NCBI GenBank assembly: GCA_903642215.1 | Contig: CAHJWG010000003.1 | Location: forward strand, 62,001-126,000 | DNA: 64,000 bases | DNA from: Sphingobacteriaceae bacterium | Lineage (GTDB): Bacteria; Bacteroidota; Bacteroidia; Sphingobacteriales; Sphingobacteriaceae | Direction of reading: 5' to 3' | Shown here: positions 1 through 48,194 of the stretch, piece after piece | How the letters are laid out: each line of letters begins with the position of its first letter | How positions within the stretch are numbered: the stretch's first letter is position 1 | The notes under the pieces: generated by a model | Database searches by the model: none | Seen by the model: only the letters and a program-made list of their open reading frames with translations | Told to the model about the DNA's origin: nothing | Position numbers and translations under genes: made by a program

Positions 1-316
1 TATTATTAGAGACTTTCTTGATGTTCGCGACGTTGTTAAAGCGTATTATTTACTCCTGCATAAAGGAGAAAAAGGCCAAGTGTATAATGTTTGCAGTGGT
101 TTTGGAACTTCATTGCAAACGGTTGTTAAAATAATGACCGAAATATTAGGTATGAATGTGAATATCAAGATAGATGAATCCCTTATTAGACCAAGTGACA
201 ATAGCATCATTGTAGGTAACAATGATAAATTAAAAAAAGCATGTGATTGGGAAACCGAGTACAGCTTGGAAGATAGTATAAGAGATGTGGTGAATTATTG
301 GAGTAATGTTTTATAA
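1..316 (+). CDS. GDP-6-deoxy-mannose reductase-like SDR, 3' part
   Basis: Only the C-terminal ~105 residues are present; the frame is open to the left edge from base 2. The stretch IRDFLDVRDVVKAYYLLL followed by VYNVCSG is typical of extended short-chain dehydrogenases that act on GDP-6-deoxy-4-keto-mannose (Rmd family), where it follows the substrate-binding part. Such enzymes make GDP-D-rhamnose, or talose in related enzymes, from the product of Gmd, whose gene lies at the right end of this cluster. Family membership is well supported. The exact product sugar is inference because the NAD-binding and catalytic part is outside the window. Confidence 0.8.
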   Translation, partial: IIRDFLDVRDVVKAYYLLLHKGEKGQVYNVCSGFGTSLQTVVKIMTEILGMNVNIKIDESLIRPSDNSIIVGNNDKLKKACDWETEYSLEDSIRDVVNYWSNVL

Positions 317-351
317 TAAATATTTATTAAAATAACCATTTTAAAATTACT

Positions 352-1458
352 ATGAAGTTATTATATGACCACCAAATCTTTGTAGCTCAAAAATTTGGTG
401 GTATTAGTCGGTATTTTAATGAGCTAATGCAGGCAGACTATCCAAATTTTAGTTTTGATAAAATAGATCCCGATCTATTTATTACTAAAAATAATTCTGT
501 GAATAAAGAAGACCTGATTTCGCGGGGCTTGAGATATGTAAAGAAGAAAACCAGTATATCTAAAACAGATGAACAGCATATAGCATTGCCACAAGAAGCC
601 TTAAGCGTTTTATCTGGTAATGATTTTGATTTGTTTCATCCAACCTACTATGATCCCTACTTTCTTAAAATATCTGATAAGCCTTTTGTGTTAACGGTTT
701 ATGACATGATACATGAAATTTACAAAGAGTATTTTCCAGTTAATGACATAACAAGCCACAACAAAAAATTATTATGCGAAAAGGCAAATCATATAATAGC
801 TATATCGGAAAGAACTAAAGAAGATTTAATTTCAATCTTCAGAGTTCCAGAGGAAAAAATTACAACCATTCTTCTTGCATCTAATTTTGATAAGGCAGTA
901 CCAAAAAAGCCTGAGACTATAGGTGAAGTGGAAAATTTTATACTTTTTGTTGGTAGTAGAGGACTGTATAAAAATTTTTACTTTCCTATTATAGCATTAT
1001 CAAAAATACTAAGAAATGATAAGACGATTAATGTACTGTGCTCGGGAGTTCCATTTACAGTTGACGAATTACATTTTTTTAAAGATTATCAGATAGATAA
1101 ACAAATGCACCATGTTTACTTAATTGGAGATGATGAGTTAGCTTGGGCTTATAGTAATGCGTTATTCTTCATATTTCCTTCTTTATATGAAGGCTTTGGT
1201 TTTCCAATTTTAGAAGCATTTGCATGTAATTGTCCTGTTATATCAAGTACAGGAGGATCATTGCCAGAAGTTGCAGGAAATGCAGCATTATATTTTGACC
1301 CAAAAAGTTATCAGGAGATTAGTGATGCTGCAAACAGTATTTTATACAATTCTGATTTAAGGTCATCTTTAATTAACAGTGGACAAAAACAGTTGAAACT
1401 TTTTACTTGGGAAAAATGCCGACAACAAACCTTCAACATTTATAAAAAATTAGCATAA
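352..1458 (+). CDS. GT4 family glycosyltransferase
   Basis: A 368-residue GT-B retaining glycosyltransferase (GT4, RfaB/WbnH-like). The N-terminus has the FGGISRYFNEL signature of this subgroup, in which the glycines contact the acceptor side. The C-terminal nucleotide-sugar domain carries the E-x7-E motif in YEGFGFPILEAF (about residues 280-290), followed by GGSLPEVAGNAALYFDP. It probably adds a hexose, often mannose in relatives, to a lipid-linked glycan at the cytoplasmic membrane. ATG start 35 bp after the preceding reductase gene. Family is certain; donor and acceptor are unknown. Confidence 0.9.
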   Translation: MKLLYDHQIFVAQKFGGISRYFNELMQADYPNFSFDKIDPDLFITKNNSVNKEDLISRGLRYVKKKTSISKTDEQHIALPQEALSVLSGNDFDLFHPTYYDPYFLKISDKPFVLTVYDMIHEIYKEYFPVNDITSHNKKLLCEKANHIIAISERTKEDLISIFRVPEEKITTILLASNFDKAVPKKPETIGEVENFILFVGSRGLYKNFYFPIIALSKILRNDKTINVLCSGVPFTVDELHFFKDYQIDKQMHHVYLIGDDELAWAYSNALFFIFPSLYEGFGFPILEAFACNCPVISSTGGSLPEVAGNAALYFDPKSYQEISDAANSILYNSDLRSSLINSGQKQLKLFTWEKCRQQTFNIYKKLA

Positions 1459-1664
1459 CAATTAAATAGAAGTTTTCTTAACTGTTATTTGTAAAATTTC
1501 TTTTTATACGTTAAAATACGGGTTACAGTATTTTTGTTTTTGTATAATGTAATCTTAATTTAACTTTCTACAAATAGAAAGAGCATTATATTTACACACG
1601 GCTCAAAAAATTCCTAACGACTAATTTAAGTAACTCAATTCTGTTTTTTATGTTATTTGTTTAA

Positions 1665-2459
1665 ATGAATTTATCTATCATCACAATCAATTACAATAAT
1701 GCACTTGCTTTAGAAAAAACTATAAGATCAGTTATAAAACAAATTGATAAGAGTTTCGAATACATAATAGTAGATGGTGGTTCTACTGATGCAAGTAATT
1801 ATATAATTTCAAAATATGCTGAGAAAGTTAGTTATTGGGTAAGTGAAAAAGACAATGGAATATATGATGCAATTAATAAAGGAATTATTAAAGCCTCAGG
1901 AGAGTATCTGATGTTTTTAAATAGTGGAGATTGCCTCAGTGATGATAATATAACAAGCTTGTCTATGGAATATATCACTAAATACCCTGAAACAGATATT
2001 TTTTATGGTGATATTTTGGGGCTTATAAATCACTCTAAAAGTACTTGGCTACATCAACATCCTGTTGAGCTAACTTTAAGTTTTTTAAAAAATCAAAATA
2101 TCAATCATCAAGCTTCATTTACTAAATCAACTATCTTTAAAGAATTTGGCCTTTATCCTGAAAATTACAAACTAGCAGGAGACCACTGGCTGTTTTTAAA
2201 ATGTTTTATTGCAGGTAAAATGTTCAGACATATCAATTACCCTCTTGTTGTTTTTGACTATGGTGGTGTCAGTACTTCAAATCGAGCTTTATATCAAAAT
2301 GAAATGAAGGCAATGTGGAAAAACTTAGTCCCAATATATGTCCAAGAGTTAATAAGTGAACTAGATAGCTATAGAACTATATCACAAAAGAAGTTGTATA
2401 AAATTGCATTTAGATTAGATATTACATTAAAAAAATTGAAAAATTTATTCTATTTATAA
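1665..2459 (+). CDS. GT2 family glycosyltransferase (WfgS/WcaE-like)
   Basis: A 264-residue GT-A enzyme. It opens with LSIITINYNN and has VDGGSTD for nucleotide binding, then SEKDNGIYDAINKGI and MFLNSGD as the metal-binding DxD equivalent. This SEKDxGIYDAxNKG signature is typical of the WfgS/WcaE subgroup of GT2 in O-antigen and colanic-acid loci. It follows a 206-bp gap in which I see no gene, and is 6 bp from the next GT2 gene. Family secure, sugar unknown. Confidence 0.88.
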   Translation: MNLSIITINYNNALALEKTIRSVIKQIDKSFEYIIVDGGSTDASNYIISKYAEKVSYWVSEKDNGIYDAINKGIIKASGEYLMFLNSGDCLSDDNITSLSMEYITKYPETDIFYGDILGLINHSKSTWLHQHPVELTLSFLKNQNINHQASFTKSTIFKEFGLYPENYKLAGDHWLFLKCFIAGKMFRHINYPLVVFDYGGVSTSNRALYQNEMKAMWKNLVPIYVQELISELDSYRTISQKKLYKIAFRLDITLKKLKNLFYL

Positions 2460-2465
2460 TATAAA

Positions 2466-3293
2466 ATGTCTCCTGTAATTTCAGTTATAATTCCTTGTTA
2501 CAATTCTGGTAATTATCTACTCGAAGCAATAGAAAGTGTGAAAATAGTTTCAAAGATTTATCCATATGAAATTATTATAACAGATGATGGATCATCTGAT
2601 CAAAATACTATTAATATTCTAAGCAAGTTATCTAAATCTAGTGAATATCTGATTTTACATCAAGAAAATAAAGGACCAGCAAGCGCAAGAAACACAGCGG
2701 TAAAAAGATCAAATGGAGAATTTTTAATATTTCTAGATAGTGATAATAAAATAAAAAAATCCTATGTAGAGAAGGCAATAGAGATATTAAATAATGATGC
2801 TGAAGTTGGTGTTGTGTATGCCAACCCTTCCTTTTTTGGTGTGTCAGACGAAAAGCGCTTTTTCTCGGCTCAACCTTTTAGTATTTATACTTTACTTGTA
2901 AGCAATTATATTGATATGTGCAGTGTAATCAGAAAAAAGGTTTGGGAAAGTGTAGAAGGATTTGATGAAGAAAGGATATTAATTGGACACGAAGATTGGG
3001 AGTTTTGGATTAGAATTGCACAATTAGGATGGAAATTTTTCCATTTAAATGAAGAACTTTATTACTACAGAGTTATGCCTGGTTCTTTAATCACCTCTAC
3101 AAATGAAGGTAATGCAGATATATACAAAAAGAAATTGAAATACATTTACGAGAAACATTTTGATTTGTTTATAAAATTGTATGCAGAATTGAGTGAAGAG
3201 TCTATTTATTATAAGCAAGACAAAAATAATCCTACTCGTTCTTTTTTTAAATATTTAAAAAATAAATATTTAAAAAAGAGCCGGAAAGATTAA
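2466..3293 (+). CDS. GT2 family glycosyltransferase
   Basis: A 275-residue GT-A glycosyltransferase. VISVIIPCYNSG at the N-terminus, TDDGSSD at about residue 40 and FLDSDNK as the DxD metal site near residue 90 define the fold. HEDWEFWIRIAQLG near residue 178 supplies the ED catalytic-base region of GT2 enzymes. A lysine-rich C-terminal tail may contact the membrane. Its last codons lie in an A/T-only inverted repeat (about 3243-3277). It probably acts on the lipid-linked repeat unit. Confidence 0.88.
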   Translation: MSPVISVIIPCYNSGNYLLEAIESVKIVSKIYPYEIIITDDGSSDQNTINILSKLSKSSEYLILHQENKGPASARNTAVKRSNGEFLIFLDSDNKIKKSYVEKAIEILNNDAEVGVVYANPSFFGVSDEKRFFSAQPFSIYTLLVSNYIDMCSVIRKKVWESVEGFDEERILIGHEDWEFWIRIAQLGWKFFHLNEELYYYRVMPGSLITSTNEGNADIYKKKLKYIYEKHFDLFIKLYAELSEESIYYKQDKNNPTRSFFKYLKNKYLKKSRKD

Positions 3294-3343
3294 CTTACAA
3301 TTTTTAATAGTGACAAAAACTATGCTGATAACAATTTAAAATA

Positions 3344-4219
3344 ATGGTTTCAATTATTATTTCATCTTACCAGCCAAATTACTTAGAAAAATTAAAGCGT
3401 AATATTTTAGAAACTATAGGTGTTCCATTTGAAATATTAGCTATAGAAAATAAAGGAATGATGAGTATATGCAGTGCTTATAATTTGGGAGCTACAAAAG
3501 CAAACTTTCCATATTTATGCTTTATGCATGAAGACATTTCTTTTAAAACTATTAATTGGTCTAAACCGCTGATTAATAAATTTGAAACGGATATATCTAC
3601 AGGAGTTATAGGAATTGCTGGTGGCAGATATAAAAGTATTTCGCCGAGTATATGGCTAAGCGGAGTGGTGGAATTGGATCGGATTAACATTATTCAGCAC
3701 TCTAAAAGTAAAAAAAATGAGTATGTAAATTATTTGCCTAATAAATTTGAAGAAGTAGTATGTTTAGATGGTGTTTTTTTGTTTACTAAAAAAAGCATCT
3801 GGGCAGAAAATAAATTTGATGAGCTTACTTTTACTAACTTTCATTGTTACGACCTTGATTTTTCTTTCCAGGTTGGACTTACCAAAACAGTACTGGTTAC
3901 CAATACTGTTTTATTAGAACATTTTTCTATGGGTTCTTATGATAAGAGCTGGATTGACGAAACAATAATTTTTCATGATAAATGGAAAGATTTGTTACCA
4001 AAAGGTAAGGTGAATTATAAAATACAAAGTAAGATTGAATGGAATAATAGAATTACTTTTTTACTTAGAATGGCACAATTTAAATTCTCGTTAACTCAGT
4101 TTTTTGCTGTTGGTTTTGGATATGGATTTAAAAACTTTTTTTCAATTCGAAAAGCTTTAACAATAACCAAGTTGATTATTTCTGCGTATGCCAAAACAAA
4201 TATATGGAAACGGAAATAG
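3344..4219 (+). CDS. StrF-like GT2-fold glycosyltransferase
   Basis: 291 residues. The N-terminal part (VSIIISSYQPN, then FEILAIENKGMMSICSAYNLGATKA and FPYLCFMHEDI) matches the StrF-like GT2-fold domain (PF13712 type), where HxD replaces the usual DxD metal motif. FHCYDLDFSFQVG contains the later acidic residues. The C-terminus has a hydrophobic amphipathic stretch. The following glycosyltransferase gene starts inside its 3' end (16-bp overlap), implying translational coupling. Donor unknown. Confidence 0.75.
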   Translation: MVSIIISSYQPNYLEKLKRNILETIGVPFEILAIENKGMMSICSAYNLGATKANFPYLCFMHEDISFKTINWSKPLINKFETDISTGVIGIAGGRYKSISPSIWLSGVVELDRINIIQHSKSKKNEYVNYLPNKFEEVVCLDGVFLFTKKSIWAENKFDELTFTNFHCYDLDFSFQVGLTKTVLVTNTVLLEHFSMGSYDKSWIDETIIFHDKWKDLLPKGKVNYKIQSKIEWNNRITFLLRMAQFKFSLTQFFAVGFGYGFKNFFSIRKALTITKLIISAYAKTNIWKRK

Positions 4220-5184
4220 CTCCATATGTATCTGTAATCATCCCCAACTACAATCATGCACCTTTTCTAAAAAAGCGTATAGAATCGGTTTTAACTCAAA
4301 CTTACCAAAACTTTGAGTTAATTATATTAGATGATTGTTCTACAGATAATAGCAAAGATATTATCAATGAATATAAGAATCATTCAAAAGTTAGTCATAC
4401 TGTTTTTAATGAACAAAATTCTGGAAGTCCGTTTTTACAGTGGCAAAAAGGTTTTGTATTAGCCAAATATGATTACCTGTGGATTGCTGAAAGTGACGAT
4501 TATGCCGATGTTAGATTTTTAGAAGTTCTATTACCTTATTTAATCGAAAATGAAAAAATAGGCGTAGCTTTTGTAGATTCCAATACTGTAGATGCCCAAG
4601 ATGTAGTTCATTTAGACTTTTATAAAAATTTTAGAAACGAGCGTTTTAAAACAGATAAATGGAATTATGATTATACAAGAACAGGTATAAATGAACTGAA
4701 AGAAAACCTGTTTTTTGAATGTACAATAAACAACACTAGTGCAATGATTTTTAAAAAAGGTTTGCTACAGTACGTAAACTTTGATTATCTCAAAAACTTT
4801 AAATATTGCGGCGATTGGTTTTTTTTCATTTCAATAGTAATACATTGTGATATTGCTTATAAAAGAGATGCTTTAAACTTTTTTCAGCAAGGCACAGACA
4901 ATTTTAAGAAAGGCACGAGGTCTACTATCAATTATTTTAAAGAGCGGTTTATGGCTCGCTATTATTTTTGGCAACGTTTAAAACCTTCTTTTCCAAAACA
5001 AGGAAAAAAACAACTATATCAGGATTTAGGCATTGAAATGCGCATCCAATTAAACGAAATGATTAAACTCAAGAGTAGTTTTTTGGATACTATTCGGTCT
5101 TTTGCTTTTATATTCAGTATTAATAAAAGTTTATTTGTTAGGCAATTTTACAATGCGGCAAGAGCTTATTTATGGAAAAACTAA
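4204..5184 (+). CDS. GT2 family glycosyltransferase
   Basis: A 326-residue GT-A enzyme with VSVIIPNYNHAPFLKKRI, LDDCSTDNSKDII and AESDDYAD as the metal-binding acidic cluster. CGDWFFFISI near residue 200 is the GDW acceptor-side motif. It is clearly paralogous to the product of 15734-16738: the N-terminal third and the FLQW(Q/E)KG segment are nearly the same. It overlaps the gene before it by 16 bp and the gene after it by 13 bp, so the three are probably co-translated. Confidence 0.88.
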   Translation: METEIAPYVSVIIPNYNHAPFLKKRIESVLTQTYQNFELIILDDCSTDNSKDIINEYKNHSKVSHTVFNEQNSGSPFLQWQKGFVLAKYDYLWIAESDDYADVRFLEVLLPYLIENEKIGVAFVDSNTVDAQDVVHLDFYKNFRNERFKTDKWNYDYTRTGINELKENLFFECTINNTSAMIFKKGLLQYVNFDYLKNFKYCGDWFFFISIVIHCDIAYKRDALNFFQQGTDNFKKGTRSTINYFKERFMARYYFWQRLKPSFPKQGKKQLYQDLGIEMRIQLNEMIKLKSSFLDTIRSFAFIFSINKSLFVRQFYNAARAYLWKN

Positions 5185-6332
5185 AAATACTGCTTGTAGC
5201 AGATGGTGTACTAACGAACATATCAGGTGTTTTAAAAGTGCATTATGAGCTAAAAGAAGAATACGAAAAGCAAGGACATGAAGTAGATGTCTTAGATTAT
5301 TCTATAGTTTATCCCAAAGGCAGAACCGCTTTTAGAAAAATATTTGGGGTTTTACCAACTGTTAAATTTTGGAATTATCTTAAAAGCAATGCTTACAAAT
5401 ATGATGTGATTGATGCAAATATTTGGTATATTGTTTACCCCAAGGAATCTTTCAACTTTAAAGGCTTGTTGCTGGCAAGGTCTCACGGAATGCAACCAGT
5501 TTACCAATTAGCTGAAAATATTAAAAGCTTTAAAGAAACGCTTACAAAAGAATATTCAAACATTAAATTTAAAACAAGACTGGGTAACATTTACCGGTCT
5601 TTACAAAAAGAAGTTGGGCTTAAGGAGTTTTATGCTTCTGTCAAATATGCCGACATTATTCATTGCTTAAATACAGAAGAGTATAGATACTTACTTAATT
5701 ACGGAATCTCTAAGAAAAAGTTGGCACTTATACCGAATGGATTAGATGACAATATTATAAATGCTTTTAATAAAGAGCCGATAAATGAAAAAGTGAATTC
5801 GTTATCTTTTGTTGGCTCTTGGACTCTAAGAAAAGGGATAAAAGATTTTGATCATATTATAACTCTAATTCGCAAACGAATTAATATTAAAGATTTCTAT
5901 TTATTGGGCGGATATTATGGTGAGGAACACGTTAAAAAAGATTTTGATAAAAAGAATCAAAATCTTTTGAAAATTGTACCATCCTTTAGACCGGAAGAAC
6001 TTTCTAAATATTTAAAAACCTGCAAAGTAGGTCTTTTTCCAAGTTATGTTGAAGGTTTTGGATTAGCTGTTGTGGAGCAGTTAGCATGTGGCATTCCAGT
6101 TGTGGCTTATAAAGTACCGGGTCCAACAGACATATTAAACAATTTGGACGCATCTTTACTAATTGAACCCGGTAATAGAGAGGCTTTTGCCAAAAAAGTA
6201 ATCGAAATTTTAGAACTTAACGATATAGAATATGCTGATTTGTCTGAAAGATGTAAGCAAGAGTCCAGGAAGTATCTATTAAGTGATATCAGCAAACGTT
6301 TTTTAAAATTGTACCGAACCAAACTAAATTAA
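5172..6332 (+). CDS. GT4 family glycosyltransferase
   Basis: A 386-residue GT-B retaining glycosyltransferase. An N-terminal acceptor domain (ILLVADGVLTNISGVLKVHYEL) is followed by LIPNGLDD and SFVGSWTLRKGIKDF at the domain junction and VEGFGLAVVEQL with the E-x7-E pair (about residues 294-302). VPGPTDIL follows, as in donor-site loops. Its start lies 13 bp inside the preceding GT2 gene. It probably extends the lipid-linked oligosaccharide. Family secure, sugar unknown. Confidence 0.88.
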   Translation: MEKLKILLVADGVLTNISGVLKVHYELKEEYEKQGHEVDVLDYSIVYPKGRTAFRKIFGVLPTVKFWNYLKSNAYKYDVIDANIWYIVYPKESFNFKGLLLARSHGMQPVYQLAENIKSFKETLTKEYSNIKFKTRLGNIYRSLQKEVGLKEFYASVKYADIIHCLNTEEYRYLLNYGISKKKLALIPNGLDDNIINAFNKEPINEKVNSLSFVGSWTLRKGIKDFDHIITLIRKRINIKDFYLLGGYYGEEHVKKDFDKKNQNLLKIVPSFRPEELSKYLKTCKVGLFPSYVEGFGLAVVEQLACGIPVVAYKVPGPTDILNNLDASLLIEPGNREAFAKKVIEILELNDIEYADLSERCKQESRKYLLSDISKRFLKLYRTKLN

Positions 6333-6481
6333 GGGTTTCTATTATATTTATGACAGTTTGTTTTATAATCAAAATAAGGGATTTAGAAAGGTAAAGTCAC
6401 TTTAATATTAATTTAAAATGATAGCTACCGAGTCCATAAATTTAATTTGATGTCAATATTCATTAACATATTATTCTGCAC

Positions 6482-7411
6482 ATGATTACTTTATCAATAG
6501 GAATTCCTGCTTATGAACGCCCAGATTTATTAAAAAGGGTATTGAATTCCATAATAACGCAGGTTGAAATTGATCAATTTAACATCGAAATATTGATTGG
6601 TGACGATTCTAAAAAGAATAATTACAATCATCTAACTGAAATTAAGAAGATACTGCCTGATAACATAACTTTAGATTATCTGCACCACGAAATATCAAAA
6701 GGTCAAAATGAAAATGTAGCCTCCCTGATTGGAAGAGCGAAAGGTGATTTCTTTTGCCTGATGCACGATGATGATTATTTTTTAGAGGGTACAATAAAAA
6801 CGCTTATCAACGAAGCAAAAAAAAATCCTTATTGTATAATTTTTGGCAAACAGTTAGTGTTGGTTAAAGAATTTGATTACGAACGATCAAAAAAAGGCAA
6901 TGCTGATTACCAAAGGAGTGCGGAATTTGCAGGAAAACAAAAAAATAGTGTTGTAATGGCAATGCTTCAACAATGTCCTAATGATGGTTTTATTCTTGAA
7001 ACTTCTTTTGCCAAAAAGTTGGGTTATAGATCTCCTAAATTAAGTGGTACTGCTTGCGATTTTGATTTTGCCTTACGTGCAGCTGTTGTAGAAAAACTAA
7101 ATTTTATTTACTTAGACCAATATACAACGGTGTACTCTGTTTTGGAAAATTCTGTGACGAATAGTTTTAATAACGATGCAACGGAAAAAATGTTAAAAAT
7201 ATTGTGCGAATTTGAAACAGACAAAGCTCACCCAGAAGTTTTTCATGAAATCATGAAAGCACATCTTTCTATGGTTATAAGCTATTACATCTCCATGCAG
7301 AACTATAATGAGGCAAGAAAACGTTTACTATCTTTTAAAAATTTCAGTAACTATTTATGGTACAAACCTGCAACTTACTTACAATTTTTAAAAATACTTT
7401 TTACTAAGTAA
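6482..7411 (+). CDS. GT2 family glycosyltransferase (RfbV-like)
   Basis: 309 residues with the GT2 fold. LSIGIPAYERPDLLKRVLNSI resembles abequosyltransferase-type (RfbV) GT2 enzymes. GDDSKK provides the first nucleotide-binding acids and LMHDDDYF the DxD metal site near residue 97. GTACDFDFALR is the acceptor-side acidic segment. It is preceded by a 149-bp AT-rich gap without a recognisable gene. Family assignment firm; the RfbV comparison is only by N-terminal pattern. Confidence 0.85.
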   Translation: MITLSIGIPAYERPDLLKRVLNSIITQVEIDQFNIEILIGDDSKKNNYNHLTEIKKILPDNITLDYLHHEISKGQNENVASLIGRAKGDFFCLMHDDDYFLEGTIKTLINEAKKNPYCIIFGKQLVLVKEFDYERSKKGNADYQRSAEFAGKQKNSVVMAMLQQCPNDGFILETSFAKKLGYRSPKLSGTACDFDFALRAAVVEKLNFIYLDQYTTVYSVLENSVTNSFNNDATEKMLKILCEFETDKAHPEVFHEIMKAHLSMVISYYISMQNYNEARKRLLSFKNFSNYLWYKPATYLQFLKILFTK

Positions 7412-7527
7412 ATTTATTTGAAACACGTGCGAAAATTTACTCAAAACAAGAAATATTAATAGTCCGAATAACGTATACATGAAAAGTTGTTTTGCAATTA
7501 AAAAAGATCAATTTAAGGAATAATATA

Positions 7528-8052
7528 ATGCTGTACGACTTTAATTTATATATCTGTAATTTCTTTGTAGCGTTTATTCCCTTTCATTTTGTACGATTGT
7601 GGTATTATAAACATGTAATGAAATTTAAAATAGGTAAAGGTAGCTCGATCCATTTAGGTTGTCAGTTCACTTCAGTGACGGAATTTCATTTGGGTGAAAA
7701 CAGTACGATAAACCAAAATTGTCGCATGGATAACCGAGGTGTAATCAAAATAGGTAATAATGTTTCCATTTCTCCCTGTGTTAATTTGATAACAGCAGAT
7801 CATGATATTCATGCTATTGATTTGCAAGGCAGACAAAAAGAAATCGTGATTAAAGATTATGTTTTTATTGGTTCTGATGCTATGATTTTACCAGGGGTTA
7901 CAATGGAAGAAGGATCTGTATTGGGCGCAAAATCTTTACTTACAAAATCTACTGTTGCATTTGGTATATATACCGGGCTTCCTGCAAAATTTCGTGCAAA
8001 TCGGCGTACTGATCTAAATTATCAAACTTCTTATATAAGGTGGTTTCATTAG
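7528..8052 (+). CDS. Hexapeptide-repeat O-acyltransferase
   Basis: A 174-residue left-handed beta-helix acyltransferase. Hexapeptide repeats are visible in LGENSTINQNCRMDNRG, IGNNVSISPCVNLIT, IKDYVFIGSDAMILPG and EEGSVLGAKSLLT. The likely catalytic His is in ADHDIH. It probably O-acetylates a sugar of the polymer with acetyl-CoA, as in the WcaB/WcaF and maltose acetyltransferase families. I chose the ATG at 7528, preceded by AAGGAAT; an in-frame TTG at 7492 would add 12 residues. Confidence 0.85.
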   Translation: MLYDFNLYICNFFVAFIPFHFVRLWYYKHVMKFKIGKGSSIHLGCQFTSVTEFHLGENSTINQNCRMDNRGVIKIGNNVSISPCVNLITADHDIHAIDLQGRQKEIVIKDYVFIGSDAMILPGVTMEEGSVLGAKSLLTKSTVAFGIYTGLPAKFRANRRTDLNYQTSYIRWFH

Positions 8053-42336: not shown

Positions 42337-45147
42337 TCAATCAGTTTTGGCAGCCGGTGCAGCAGTTGCAGAACCGGAATACAACTGGTTAAAAAGCAGT
42401 TTAAACGTTCCGTGAGATTGCCCGCGGAAAACTATTTCCGGCCCGAAAGCATAAAGTTTTCCGGCTCCAACCGATGCCACAAAACCGGTAACGCCGTCCT
42501 TTAAATACGCTTGCCCCCAGGCCCAGCCACTGCGCAGCGGTTTATCGTTCGGGAACCAGATCAAAGGTTTTACGCCCTTTTCGGCTGCGTTTGCATCTAA
42601 TTTAAAAACCGGACTGTTATCAAAATCGATATCGGCTTCCGCCGTCATTCCCCAATCTGCCGGTTCCTGCGGATCAGCCTGCACACGTAAAACACTTCCC
42701 GGAATGTAATATTTTGTGCCGGACAATGGCCGTACTTCTCCGTTATTGTTCTTCTCCACCAACATATTATGAACAGGCAGGCCAAGATGATAAGCCAGAT
42801 TGGTGCTTGTGCCGATGGTTACCACAGAACCGCCTGCTTCCAAAAATGCTTTTAACTGCGGGATTGATTTTTCGGGCGTAATACTGCCCAGCATCTTATG
42901 AAATTCTACAGGTATTTCTTCCGGTTTTGGCGCACGGTCTGCATATAAACTTCTGTCCCTGGCCTCGCCGCCGACAGGAGGAATTGCCCTGGTTACAAAT
43001 AAAATCAGATCATATTTGCTTTTGAGGTTGCCGGCATCAATCTCCTGCGAATAAATCCTTTCGTAAGGAAAATGGTATTGTTCTAAAACCCAGCGTGTCC
43101 AGCCGGAAGGGATCGAGCCGCCGTAAGTATCCCAAAGTGCGATGCGCATGGCAGAAACTTTAACGGCATCGGCCGGGCGCGCACTAATGCCGGTTACTTT
43201 AATGCCCAGCTCCGCAGCAGATTTTTCTAATTGTGCTTTTGCTTTTTCGCCGGCAGGCACAAAAAATGTACCCGTTTCCGGCATATTGGCAACTCCTTTC
43301 GGCAAGCGGTAAACTGTTACACCGGCTTTCAATAAATCATTTACGGCGATAAAAGAATTGTTAACCTGAGCACTCAGCAAATATCCTGCACCCGCATTGG
43401 AAGCAATCATTTGTTTTGGCGGAGATTGAACTTCGCCGTAAGGGATTTTTTGAAAAGGGCCGTTGAAACCATCCAGCACACGGTCAAATTTTAAGCCCAT
43501 CTGGAAAGCCAAAGTCCAGCCGGCAGAATCGTACGGGCGGATCGGCGGGCCGCCGGGATACAAAAAATCATTCGGATGATCCTGCGGCTCGAACATATCC
43601 AGCACGTGCGGCCGGAAAGCCTGATCAGTTTTAACCACGTAAGAACCTGCGGGATATTTTTTCCCGGCAACCGAGAAATCAGCAGTCGCCTTTTCTACCC
43701 GGATCCCGGCTTTGATCAACGTATTGATAAATTTAACAGCCGTTGGAAAATCAGGCTGATCAGCCGGTAAAATATAACCGCGCGCATCACGCAGTTCCTG
43801 ATTTTTTAAAACAGCATCATAATACTTCATCGGGATTTCGCTTCCTCTGGTCATCCAACCCATCGGATCGCCGACTGCGGCCGTACTGTTTTTATCGGTA
43901 CTTTTCTGGTCGTTCCGGTAAGCTGCGGTAATGGCATCGGCACGTTTTGGCGAAAGTGTCCAGTAATCTTTACTGCCGCGTTCGATAGAATTTTTGCCCA
44001 TTCGATAAATATTAAACAGCACCTCGTCGCGCTGACGGGCAGCATAATCCAGCACCGCATAGTTCAGGGAAACCGAATAGTCGATAGATTGCTTAAAGTG
44101 CCAAACATCCTGCGGTAAAACCGGATTCGGCGTAGCACCGTTCGGGATTAAACGCGCCGGAACAACCGGAATTTTCTCTGGAGTCGGACTGCCGATAATC
44201 TCCGTCAGTAAACCGATCATGTTGTGAAACTGCGTGGTGGTACGCAGGCCGCCGTTGTACCAGGTAGAAAAGCTGGAACCGGTTAAACGGGTATAGCCCG
44301 GCTTATTCTCCACATTCAATCTGCTGTACATCGCCGCGCCAAGCGCATCGATACCGGTAATCATCAGCGGATCAAAAACGTAATTAAAAGGATCGCGGTA
44401 CGGCGGGCCGGCCAGCACAGAACCTTCCGGGCCGCGCTGGTGGTGGTTGTACATAATCTGCGGAAACCACTCTACAAAAAGCTGCCGGTTCAAATTACTG
44501 CTTTCCTTCGTATTCATCATATAAAAATCGCGGTTGTTATCATGCCCGATGTATTTTTCATACAGCCTCGGGATATTCATATTACGCTTTTTAAGATCGC
44601 TTTCCTGCATGTACCAATCGGAAACCAGCTCCTGCCCGTCCGGGTTGGCGTGCGTTAGCAATACGATCACGTTATCCAGAATGCGCATCGTTTCCGGGTC
44701 TTTACGGCTTACCAGATCATATATCGTTTCAATCAGCTGGTGCGGACTAACTACTTCTGTAGCATGGATTCCGCCGTCAATCCAAACCACCGCTTTGCCT
44801 TTTGCGGCCAGTGCCAACGCCTGCTGATCGGTTAAACCTTCGGCACGGGCCAGTTTTTGGGAGATTTCTTTGTATTGATTCAGGTTTTTAATGTTTTCGG
44901 GAGAAGAAACAATCATCATATACTGGTGCCGGCCTTCCTCCGTTAAACCGATATCAACTAATTTAGTGCGGTTAGATGCCGCGGCAACTTTTTTAAAATA
45001 AGCTTCCGTTTGCGTGTAGTTGGCCAGCTGGTAATCATCGCCGATGTTAAAACCAAAATGTGCTTTTGGCGAAGGCACTGTTTGTGCCCGAACAGCAATG
45101 CCGAGCAGCAACAGGCTCAGCATTGCGAACGTTAATTTTATCTTCAT
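42337..45147 (-). CDS. M14-family zinc carboxypeptidase, second tandem copy
   Basis: 936 residues. Signal peptide (MKIKLTFAMLSLLLLGIAVRA). M14 domain about residues 40-400: GGIHATE (His128/Glu131, the HxxE zinc pair), THANPDGQEL, and YNHHQRGPEGSVLAGPPYRDPF with the third zinc His. The C-terminal half holds a flavodoxin/amidotransferase-like stretch (VTIGTSTNLAYHLGLPV). Closely similar along its length to the product of 45423-48194. Such periplasmic M14 proteins hydrolyse peptides taken up by SusC/D systems. The catalytic Glu of M14 was not located with certainty by eye. Confidence 0.88.
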   Translation of the reverse strand: MKIKLTFAMLSLLLLGIAVRAQTVPSPKAHFGFNIGDDYQLANYTQTEAYFKKVAAASNRTKLVDIGLTEEGRHQYMMIVSSPENIKNLNQYKEISQKLARAEGLTDQQALALAAKGKAVVWIDGGIHATEVVSPHQLIETIYDLVSRKDPETMRILDNVIVLLTHANPDGQELVSDWYMQESDLKKRNMNIPRLYEKYIGHDNNRDFYMMNTKESSNLNRQLFVEWFPQIMYNHHQRGPEGSVLAGPPYRDPFNYVFDPLMITGIDALGAAMYSRLNVENKPGYTRLTGSSFSTWYNGGLRTTTQFHNMIGLLTEIIGSPTPEKIPVVPARLIPNGATPNPVLPQDVWHFKQSIDYSVSLNYAVLDYAARQRDEVLFNIYRMGKNSIERGSKDYWTLSPKRADAITAAYRNDQKSTDKNSTAAVGDPMGWMTRGSEIPMKYYDAVLKNQELRDARGYILPADQPDFPTAVKFINTLIKAGIRVEKATADFSVAGKKYPAGSYVVKTDQAFRPHVLDMFEPQDHPNDFLYPGGPPIRPYDSAGWTLAFQMGLKFDRVLDGFNGPFQKIPYGEVQSPPKQMIASNAGAGYLLSAQVNNSFIAVNDLLKAGVTVYRLPKGVANMPETGTFFVPAGEKAKAQLEKSAAELGIKVTGISARPADAVKVSAMRIALWDTYGGSIPSGWTRWVLEQYHFPYERIYSQEIDAGNLKSKYDLILFVTRAIPPVGGEARDRSLYADRAPKPEEIPVEFHKMLGSITPEKSIPQLKAFLEAGGSVVTIGTSTNLAYHLGLPVHNMLVEKNNNGEVRPLSGTKYYIPGSVLRVQADPQEPADWGMTAEADIDFDNSPVFKLDANAAEKGVKPLIWFPNDKPLRSGWAWGQAYLKDGVTGFVASVGAGKLYAFGPEIVFRGQSHGTFKLLFNQLYSGSATAAPAAKTD

Positions 45148-45158
45148 AAAAACAGTAT
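45146..45158 (+). repeat. Dispersed element, TAAAAACAGTA class, overlapping a start codon
   Basis: ATAAAAACAGTAT; its first two bases are part of the ATG of the second M14 gene (- strand). Confidence 0.6.
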
Positions 45159-45198
45159 TAAGTTAAACATTAATTCATTTGTTATTAAAATGAAGAGA

Positions 45199-45312
45199 CA
45201 CACCCTAACCCCTCTCGATAGGAGAAATCGCTTCCAGACCTTTCTAAATCTATAAAAGCAAATTAGAAAGGTAGCAAACTATGCTTCCCCCTTTTGAAGG
45301 GGGTTAGGGGGA
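45199..45312. repeat. GC-rich Bacteroidota intergenic repeat
   Basis: CCCTAACCCCTC near the left and GGGGGTTAGGGGG near the right are inverted, with an inner hairpin ACCTTTCTAA / TTAGAAAGGT. This matches the CCCTAACCCC-type intergenic repeats common in this phylum. It carries no coding frame. Confidence 0.75.
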
Positions 45313-45340
45313 TGATCTTTTTTTAGACTGAAAATGTATC

Positions 45341-45414
45341 GATAAAAGAAGTATCAGAGCCTCACCCCCAACCCTCTCCAAAGGAGAGGGAGCAACGGCG
45401 ATACTTCTTTTATC
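45341..45414. repeat. 74-bp unit with perfect 15-bp terminal inverted repeats
   Basis: GATAAAAGAAGTATC (45341-45355) and GATACTTCTTTTATC (45400-45414) are exact reverse complements. Between them is a GC-rich stem CCCTCTCC-AAA-GGAGAGGG (about 45373-45391). The layout resembles a miniature inverted-repeat element or REP-like unit built on the dispersed motif. Nothing encodes a protein here. Confidence 0.7.
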
Positions 45415-45422
45415 ACCCTAAA

Positions 45423-48194
45423 TTACTTAGTCATATACAACTGATTAAACAGCAGCCGGAACGTATTTTGCGCCTGCGCCCTGAAAGTAATTTCCGGCCC
45501 GAAAGCATACAATTTACCCGAACCAACTTTCGCCACAAAAGCTGCCGTACCGTCTTTCAAATATTTTTGCCCCCAGGCCCAGCCGCTGTCCAACGGTTTA
45601 TCGGTTGCAAACCAGGCCAACCGTTTTACGCCTTTTGCTTCGGCATCCGCATCTAATTTAAAAACCGGGCTACGGTCAAAATCAACATCCGTTTCGGGCT
45701 GCATCCCATAATTGGCCGGTTCGGAAGTATCAAAATTAGCTTTCAACAAACTGCCGGGAATGTAATATTTGGTTCCGGGAAGTGGCCGTTCTTTACCGTT
45801 CGGGCCTGTTTCGGTTAGATAACTATGCACCGGCAAACCTAAGTGATAAGCTAAATTGGTACTTGTGCCGATAGTAACTACCGTTCCGCCGGCTTCCATA
45901 AATTTTTTAATTTGAGGGATGGATTTCTCCGCAGTAATCCTGCCCAGCCACGGCCGGTATTCGGCAGGAATAGAATCCGCCTTCGGCTGGCGTACCGGTC
46001 CGCCTTCGCCAACCGGAGCTTCTCCCCTTCCGATAGCCGGGATGGCACCGGTAACAAAAACCAGCACATCGTATTTCTGGTTCAAATTACCGGCATCAAT
46101 TTCCTGCGGATAAACCTGCGTATAAGCATAATGATACTGCTCCATCAACCAGCGCACCCAACCGGAAGGCATCGATCCGCCGTAATTATTCCACAAACCA
46201 ATCCGCACGGATGAAATTTTGACTGCTCCGGCCGGCATTGCAGCAATATCCGAAACTTTCAATCCAAAATCGGATGCTTCTTTTACCAGTACATTTTGGG
46301 CTTGGGTTGAAGCAGGAACGAAAAATGTGCCGGCAGCCATTTGCGCCGAAATTTTTGTTAAACGATAAACCTGAACGCCCGCCTTTAACAAATCATTTAC
46401 GGCAACAAAAGAATTATTGATCGAAGGGCTCAGCAAATAACCGCCTTTAGCCGTAGTCAGGTTTTGTTTTGGGGGAGATTGTATGGCACCGTAAGCTACT
46501 TTCTGGAACGGGCCGGTAAATCCATTCATAATCCGGTCAAACTTTACGCCCATTTGGAAAGCTAAAGTCCAGCCGGCAGAATCATACGGACGAATCGGCG
46601 GGCCGCCTTCGTATTGGAAATCATTCGGATGGTCCTGCGGTTCAAACATATCCATCACATGCGGCCGGAAAGCCTGATCGTTCTTCACAATATAAGAACC
46701 GGCCGGATATTTTTTCCCGGCAACGGTAAAATCAGCCGTCGCTTTTTGAACTTGAATGCCCGAATAAAGCAGTGCATTGATAAATTTTATCGCCGTAGGG
46801 AAATCAGTTTGATCAGCCGGAATAATGTAACCGCGGGCATCACGGTTAACCGGATTTTTTAGAACCTGCGTATAATATTTATTCGGGATCGTATCTTCCC
46901 GGCCAAAAGAAAACTCGCCGGAAGCATTCCGGCTGCTGTCTTTTTTAGCTGCTTTTTTATCCCTGGTATAAGCTGTTTTGATGGAATCAATGTATTTCGG
47001 ATAGAAAGTCCAGTGGTCTTCATCACCTCGCCCGATAGCATTTTTGCCCATTTTGTAAATATTATAAAGTAATATCGTACGGTAACGGGCGGCATAATCC
47101 AGCACGGCATAATTTAAGGAAACCGAATAATCAATGGATTGCCGGAAATGCCATACCTGCGGCACCACCGGATTTGGCGTAGCACCGTTCGGGATCAACC
47201 GATCAGGCACTAAAGCAACCGTTTCCGGTGTGGGGCCGCCGATAATCTCCGTTAGCAAACCAACCATATTGTGGAAATAAGGCGTTGTGCGCAAACCGCC
47301 GTTCCACCAGGTAGAAAACTGTGAACCTGCACGTTGCGTGTAACCGGGTTTATTTTCTGCATTCAGCCGATTGTTCATTGCCGCGCCAACGGCATCAATA
47401 CTGGTTACAATCAGCGGATCATAAACATAATTAAAAGGATCGCGGTACGGCGGGCCGGCCAAAACAGAACCGGCAGGGCCGCGCTGATGGTGGTTGTACA
47501 TAATCTGCGGGATCCATTCCACAAACAATTGCTTGCTGATGTTCTGGCTTTCCTTCATGTTCATCATAAAAAAATCTCGGTTATTGTCATGGCCGATATA
47601 TTTCTGCCATAAACGGGGCACATCCATTTTGCGTTTTTTCGGATCAGCTTCCCGCATGTACCAGTTGGAAACCAGTTCCTGCCCGTCGGGGTTGCAATGG
47701 GTAAGCAAGATCACGTCGTTTTTCAAAATATTCAGCGTTTCCTCATCGTTTCGGGTAATCAGCTGGTACATCGTTTCGATCAGCTGATGCGTACCCACAA
47801 CTTCGGATGCGTGCAGTCCGCCATCAATCCAAATCACAGATTTTCCTTCGGCAGCAAGCGTTTTTGCCTGCATATCATTCAATCCATCCGCGTGGGCCAG
47901 CTTTTGGGAAATTTCTTTATATCGACCCAGTTTTTTAATATTTTCCGGCGAAGAAACAATCATCATATACTGGTGCCGGCCTTCTTCCGTCATCCCGATA
48001 TCGACTAATTTAGTGCGCGGGGAAGCAGACAGTTTTTTAAAGTAAGCTTCCGTTTGCGTGTAATTGGCCAGCTTGTAATCATCGCCGATATTAAACCCAA
48101 AATGCTCTTTGGGCGAAGGGATTTTTTGTGCCTGAGTTACCAAAACGGAAAAAATCAGCGGTAAAAAAAGCATGCGGTAAAATTTACTAATCAT
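45423..48194 (-). CDS. M14-family zinc carboxypeptidase, first tandem copy
   Basis: 923 residues. Signal peptide (RMLFLPLIFSVLVTQAQ). The M14 motifs GGLHASE (zinc HxxE), THCNPDGQEL and YNHHQRGPAGSVLAGPPYRDPF lie at the same spacing as in the paralogue downstream. C-terminal region VTIGTSTNLAYHLGLPV is also shared. The copies differ throughout, so the duplication is not recent. Located directly after the SusE-like gene in the presumed ECF/SusCD operon, consistent with periplasmic peptide breakdown. Confidence 0.88.
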   Translation of the reverse strand: MISKFYRMLFLPLIFSVLVTQAQKIPSPKEHFGFNIGDDYKLANYTQTEAYFKKLSASPRTKLVDIGMTEEGRHQYMMIVSSPENIKKLGRYKEISQKLAHADGLNDMQAKTLAAEGKSVIWIDGGLHASEVVGTHQLIETMYQLITRNDEETLNILKNDVILLTHCNPDGQELVSNWYMREADPKKRKMDVPRLWQKYIGHDNNRDFFMMNMKESQNISKQLFVEWIPQIMYNHHQRGPAGSVLAGPPYRDPFNYVYDPLIVTSIDAVGAAMNNRLNAENKPGYTQRAGSQFSTWWNGGLRTTPYFHNMVGLLTEIIGGPTPETVALVPDRLIPNGATPNPVVPQVWHFRQSIDYSVSLNYAVLDYAARYRTILLYNIYKMGKNAIGRGDEDHWTFYPKYIDSIKTAYTRDKKAAKKDSSRNASGEFSFGREDTIPNKYYTQVLKNPVNRDARGYIIPADQTDFPTAIKFINALLYSGIQVQKATADFTVAGKKYPAGSYIVKNDQAFRPHVMDMFEPQDHPNDFQYEGGPPIRPYDSAGWTLAFQMGVKFDRIMNGFTGPFQKVAYGAIQSPPKQNLTTAKGGYLLSPSINNSFVAVNDLLKAGVQVYRLTKISAQMAAGTFFVPASTQAQNVLVKEASDFGLKVSDIAAMPAGAVKISSVRIGLWNNYGGSMPSGWVRWLMEQYHYAYTQVYPQEIDAGNLNQKYDVLVFVTGAIPAIGRGEAPVGEGGPVRQPKADSIPAEYRPWLGRITAEKSIPQIKKFMEAGGTVVTIGTSTNLAYHLGLPVHSYLTETGPNGKERPLPGTKYYIPGSLLKANFDTSEPANYGMQPETDVDFDRSPVFKLDADAEAKGVKRLAWFATDKPLDSGWAWGQKYLKDGTAAFVAKVGSGKLYAFGPEITFRAQAQNTFRLLFNQLYMTK

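Follow-up and report, generated by a model that had tools for sequence, protein, structure and literature searches.

The intergenic region studied here lies between two tandem paralogous ORFs for M14 zinc carboxypeptidases, both on the minus strand of the window (the whole stretch of DNA that was analysed, 64,000 nucleotides long), one at positions 45423-48194 and the other, downstream, at 42337-45147. A 74-bp unit at 45341-45414 begins 8 bp beyond the first ORF's stop codon and sits upstream of the second. The initial annotation saw in it perfect 15-bp inverted repeats 44 nt apart, and this holds exactly: the left arm, GATAAAAGAAGTATC, occupies 45341-45355 on the plus strand and the right arm, its exact reverse complement as read on the plus strand, 45400-45414 on the minus strand, with 100% complementarity between them. 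Both arms are cores of the dispersed motif described below, with motif scores of 25.2 (left) and 27.8 (right) against a threshold of 11. Each is accompanied by an A/T tract, recognized in the sequence and in logos, which for the left copy lies at 45330-45336 (plus strand, motif positions -11 to -5) and for the right copy at 45419-45425 (minus strand, taaatta on the plus strand). Folded as DNA, the 74-bp stretch has a z-score of -7.3, with none of the shuffles equally stable.

The loop of the unit holds a 35-nt GC-rich, REP-like repeat, AGCCTCACCCCCAACCCTCTCCAAAGGAGAGGGAG (45358-45392), which is dispersed elsewhere and absent from the orthologous pair in the sister genome G002. The same intergenic region contains a GC-rich inverted repeat of a second dispersed family, CCCCCTTTTGAAGGGGGTTAGGGGG (45287-45311), lying outside the motif. 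A further copy of the motif, the AC variant CATAAAAACAGTATT (45145-45159, plus strand), overlaps the start codon of the 42337-45147 carboxypeptidase gene, and G002 has retained the counterpart. The whole 74-bp arrangement recurs as a near-copy at 495794-495867 of contig C1. Taken with the analyses below, the unit amounts to a single inverted pair of a USS-like word specific to one clade, made longer by a GC-rich repeat that is unrelated to it.

The word and its phylogenetic range

That the arms belong to a dispersed element, as first proposed from the sequence of the window, was borne out by counting. The 15-mer matches the window 20 times with up to 2 mismatches, where 0.19 matches are expected, and the 3.84-Mb genome 510 times with up to 1 mismatch, compared with 1 for a reversed control. 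A logo of 270 copies, followed by an iterated weight matrix, extended the motif to about 26 bp: an A/T tract (-11 to -5), then NRYY, then GRTAAAA[GA/AC]AGYATY, the 15-mer being the core. Its information totals about 21 bits, with little outside positions -13 to +16. The dinucleotide at core positions 8-9 is mostly GA (443 sites) or AC (232), less often AA (42), and every other dinucleotide occurs at most 19 times. The A/T tract lies about one helical turn from the core and is a property of single sites.

Our site statistics rest on the window and on contig C1 (1.11 Mb, 29% of the assembly), which carries 1,522 sites (802 plus, 720 minus), or 1.37 per kb, with a false-positive share of about 5% as judged from the reversed control. 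Densities are 1.40 per kb in genome G001 and 1.58 per kb in contig L120 of Mucilaginibacter arboris; G001 is itself M. arboris or nearly so, being 100% identical to it over a 3-kb stretch. A density of about 1 copy per kb, far above chance, is as expected of an uptake sequence.

In the three genomes of one genus-level clade, which includes M. arboris, the exact degenerate 15-mer numbers 436, 635, and 666 copies; the reversed control for the 436 copies gave 0. Outside this clade, searches of 301 family genomes in 25 genera, of relatives, and of 395 genomes of the phylum returned 0-2 copies per genome, and matches in viral contigs came one per stretch, as by chance. Only the three genomes of the clade carry the motif, which is absent from about 690 other Bacteroidota. 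A k-mer enrichment search for a second such word found none in about 20 other genera of the family at up to 60 kb each (about 15 of them with at least 20 kb, an amount at which a weak dialect could escape), nor in about 70 named Bacteroidota contigs. Separately, a palindrome, GCTTTCGCGAAAGC, occurs in 8-10 copies in 12-22 kb of Nonlabens antarcticus (L194) and Dokdonia (L183) and is a different kind of dispersed word, and a word of Limnovirga soli (L139), CTTGCGTCGCA, is present 8 times in 22 kb.

Distribution, origin, and conservation of the sites

Although ORFs make up 89.5% of C1, they hold 65% of the sites, and intergenic density is fourfold higher. Outside the island described next, the sites are spread over 10-kb bins more evenly than a Poisson process would spread them (dispersion index 0.57). 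Orientation is close to 1:1 on either side of the GC-skew change of C1 (415/386 and 387/334), and site orientation showed no correlation with GC skew (rho 0.22, p = 0.27). Occurrence in both orientations, regular spacing, and lack of a replication-strand bias are as expected for uptake sequences.

The sites are nearly missing from a 68-kb island (G000 C1:50-118 kb, loci L034-L037), which has 6 where 98.8 are expected and which by inspection encodes the type I restriction-modification proteins HsdR/S/M, a serine recombinase, tyrosine integrases, and a MobF-like relaxase. Uptake sequences are likewise expected to be depleted in recently acquired mobile DNA, of which this one island is our example, and scarcity of motif sites could serve to map mobile islands in these genomes. 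Two further stretches are poor in sites: C1:1087000-1111389, where a polysaccharide export/glycosyltransferase cluster precedes ORFs resembling, by eye, Cas1 and a Cas9-type protein, and positions 1-8000 of the window, which have 2 sites versus about 9-11 expected and may be recently acquired DNA.

To trace the origin of sites, reciprocal-best orthologues from motif-less genera were aligned, the same gap test as that used for the USS of Haemophilus (PMC1626085). For 46 of 54 ORF-internal sites the alignment to other genera is ungapped, and a motif of comparable score is nearly always missing in the outgroup. Against this, gaps at sites relative to the closest outgroup (6 of 39) exceed the control (4.7%) somewhat. 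The ungapped pattern is that of an uptake sequence arising by point substitution and not by insertion, and it fails to support the suggestion in the initial annotation that single copies are solo ends of a larger unit, since ORF-internal copies align without gaps to relatives that lack the element.

Once present, the sites are retained. In the comparison with M. arboris, codons whose amino acid is conserved have a third-position identity of 0.90 inside the core and of 0.63 outside it (p = 2e-40), and at fourfold sites the figures are 0.88 and 0.51. M. arboris retains 48 of the 51 strong sites while just 21 are identical, and the changes at the same place in the core include five from AC to GA and one from GA to AC. 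In the comEC region, where DNA identity is 76%, 14 of 20 alignable sites are common to the sister species. Such maintenance across sister species is again expected of uptake sequences. Together, the conservation beyond background, the AC/GA swaps, and the shared sites of the comEC region show that the sites are selected or driven rather than passively inherited.

Inverted pairs and the GC-rich insert

Neighboring sites 16-40 bp apart are inverted in 77 cases and direct in 9. Divergent (-+) pairs peak at core spacings of 17 bp (27 cases) and 31 bp (11 cases). By inspection, the two cores share one A/T tract at 31 bp, and at a spacing of 17 bp the expected place of one core's tract is taken by the TTTTA of the other; these spacings suggest that the tract matters. 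Convergent (+-) pairs lie tail-to-tail, between convergent genes, in 21 cases and head-to-head in 1, an enrichment of close inverted copies at gene ends such as uptake sequences show. When pairs were sought as exact GATAAAAGAAGYATC on both sides of a 15-45 nt loop, the pair in the window was the only one in the genome, but the full motif model yielded 17 others in C1 alone (+-, core starts 50-70 bp apart), among them the near-copy at C1:495794-495867.

At the orthologous spot in G002, right after the same stop codon, stands GGTAAAAGAAGCATG-GGCGAAATGCT-GATGCTTCTTTTATC, a pair with an 11-nt loop; the inverted pair is therefore conserved. The GC-rich stem that the initial annotation had seen between the arms is real, but it belongs to a separate repeat of about 35 nt that the G002 pair lacks. 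In this genome the additional loop sequence matches AGCCTCACCCCCAACCCTCTCCAAAGGAGAGGGAG, which is found elsewhere too. Because this repeat is dispersed, we infer an insertion here and not a loss in G002, so that the GC stem would be a later addition in this lineage. Four of the six copies that we read with their flanks in BLAST matches sit in loops of motif pairs, with differing spacers, so the repeat has probably entered such loops more than once. The 35-nt insert may itself be a mobile or REP-like repeat.

The RNA hairpins predicted from the pairs are stable (z of -4.6 in this genome and -6.1 in G002), but no clear U-run follows the stems in either genome's version, so that a role as terminator is plausible on the strength of these foldings.

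A candidate uptake signal and its alternatives

The motif is probably a DNA-uptake signal of the USS/DUS kind whose inverted pairs have been co-opted as 3'-end hairpins, because all testable genomic criteria match those of USS and DUS: density, strand symmetry, evenness, origin by substitution, an A/T segment one helical turn from the core, restriction to one clade, depletion in the island, and inverted pairs at gene ends. Under the mechanism that we propose, a receptor of the competence machinery would prefer the ~26-bp word on incoming DNA, and DNA bearing the word would be taken up and recombined more often, such that copies would accumulate through point mutation and transformation-biased conversion. 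This accumulation would run evenly along both strands of the vertically inherited genome and leave freshly acquired islands empty, and the core would be read in two interchangeable forms, its positions 8-9 being either GA or AC. Where inverted copies chance to be near one another, they would form hairpins, and those behind stop codons would be kept, probably as terminators or as structures at transcript 3' ends, and in this lineage a 35-nt GC-rich REP-like insertion would have enlarged the loop of the 74-bp unit. The uptake preference, the receptor, and the terminator role are all inferred.

Published USS and DUS occur at near 1 per kb without orientation bias (PMC1626085). Our motif shares with the USS of Pasteurellaceae (Haemophilus influenzae) this density and unbiased orientation, a genic share of 65% (the same figure as for USS within H. 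influenzae genes) combined with higher intergenic density, regular spacing, close inverted pairs, an A/T segment about one turn away, and an origin by substitution (PMC1626085). Unlike the Pasteurellaceae USS, it is unrelated in sequence, belongs to a different phylum, has a longer and more degenerate core (15 bp, in the forms GA or AC), and is a putative uptake signal. With the DUS dialects of Neisseriaceae it has in common a high copy number, a clade-specific word, depletion in conjugative islands, DUS-poor ICEs being known in Neisseria (PMC7371117), and two variants in one genome, as in Simonsiella muelleri (PMC3630211, PMC7371117). In contrast to DUS, to which it bears no sequence relation, it has an A/T flank, none being reported for DUS (PMC1626085), and while Neisseria reads DUS with the pilin ComP, we have at most a candidate receptor. 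The terminators formed by USS and DUS consist of close inverted copies behind genes, mostly tail-to-tail and rarely head-to-head (PMC1852404); the pairs described here are arranged likewise, but their stems are A/T-rich, no consistent U-run follows them, and one loop contains an inserted GC-rich repeat.

Within the same phylum, the own DNA of Riemerella columbina far outcompetes foreign DNA in transformation, implying some signal, but what the authors of that study gave were simple A/T-rich k-mers of unproven role (PMC7965970). Among the genomes searched here, our motif is confined to its own clade. The literature that we searched identified no uptake word in Bacteroidota and contained no report of a competent Mucilaginibacter; per the same literature, uptake words are established just in Neisseriaceae and Pasteurellaceae. 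A strong candidate from Bacteroidota would represent an independent origin, and comparison could then test why bacteria mark their own DNA. R. columbina prefers its own DNA by no known signal (PMC7965970). The motif offers a direct substrate for uptake assays and a handle on a receptor, and the 74-bp unit is an important pointer to a likely uptake-signal system in Bacteroidota.

As expected of a host of uptake sequences, the genome has competence genes, namely intact comEC (Pfam Competence, E 2.5e-56) and intact dprA. Both genes are near-universal, so their presence says little. Directly upstream of comEC, all three species of the clade have a conserved 681-aa ORF (L219:12384-14429, minus strand; L120:7949-9997). 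By eye, its N-terminus is helix-hairpin-helix-like and the remainder outer-membrane-barrel-like, but no Pfam family or solved chain matched it, and an AlphaFold model from three sequences was uninterpretable (pLDDT 31). From its position and these features, the product is possibly the DNA receptor. Transformation of Riemerella, one of the transformable Bacteroidota, requires ComEC, DprA, ComF, and an HHH protein, and a pilus homologue was not found there (PMC8459023). We put forward, tentatively and as a possibility below even odds, that self-DNA recognition evolved in Bacteroidota independently of Neisseria and Pasteurellaceae, with a two-form word and A/T tract that may be read by a non-pilin outer-membrane receptor encoded upstream of comEC.

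Any sequence-specific DNA-binding protein with selected sites throughout a genome could leave some of the traces on which the uptake reading relies. An intracellular organiser or segregator of the chromosome (nucleoid-associated, or SMC/ParB/MatP-like) might bind the motif and be selected for even spacing, which would suit the low dispersion index, the use of both orientations, and the placing of the A/T tract at one turn's distance from the core, as at the sites of a DNA-bending protein. Known organiser and segregation systems, however, have tens to a few hundred sites and macrodomain patterns, whereas our motif runs to ~1,500 sites per Mb evenly over 1.11 Mb, and the island depletion, the two interchangeable cores, and the surplus of inverted pairs where genes converge fit uptake sequences better. 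We thus consider an organiser rather unlikely. The two-site binding arrangement that the initial annotation offered as its second option is nearer the truth than its mobile-unit reading.

It is very unlikely that the motif exists for the sake of RNA hairpins or terminators, single copies being by-products. The inverted excess at 16-40 bp, the tail-to-tail enrichment of +- pairs, and the stable hairpins predicted here and in G002 would follow from such a role, but most sites are unpaired, 65% are within ORFs in either orientation, the A/T tract belongs to single sites, and the stems lack a consistent U-run. A polar recombination or translocation signal like Chi or KOPS, suggested by the great abundance of the motif, also in coding DNA, is scarcely credible, as both of these signals are far shorter and show strand bias, and the near 1:1 orientation in both skew halves contradicts such polarity.

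Equally improbable is the MITE- or REP-type mobile unit of the initial annotation, 74 bp long with 15-bp terminal inverted repeats and leaving single copies as solo ends. The perfect ends of the unit, the second near-identical arrangement at C1:495794, and the presence of one Y1-transposase ORF in the genome speak for it. Nearly all copies are single, however, far outnumbering pairs, and share no flanks beyond the A/T tract; the sites arose by substitution, not as insertions with ends; the spacers between motif and GC repeat vary among copies; and the sister genome has the pair but not the GC repeat. The gap analysis, the unshared flanks, and the sister locus together contradict a MITE or REP origin for the motif. 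The RAYT-like transposase that might have served the unit fares no better, for the sole Y1_Tnp ORF is surrounded by other repeats. This single Y1/RAYT-type ORF (L228, G000:C6:95721-95939) has GGGATTTGTAATCCC-like flanking repeats, which belong to a different REP family from that of the 74-bp unit.
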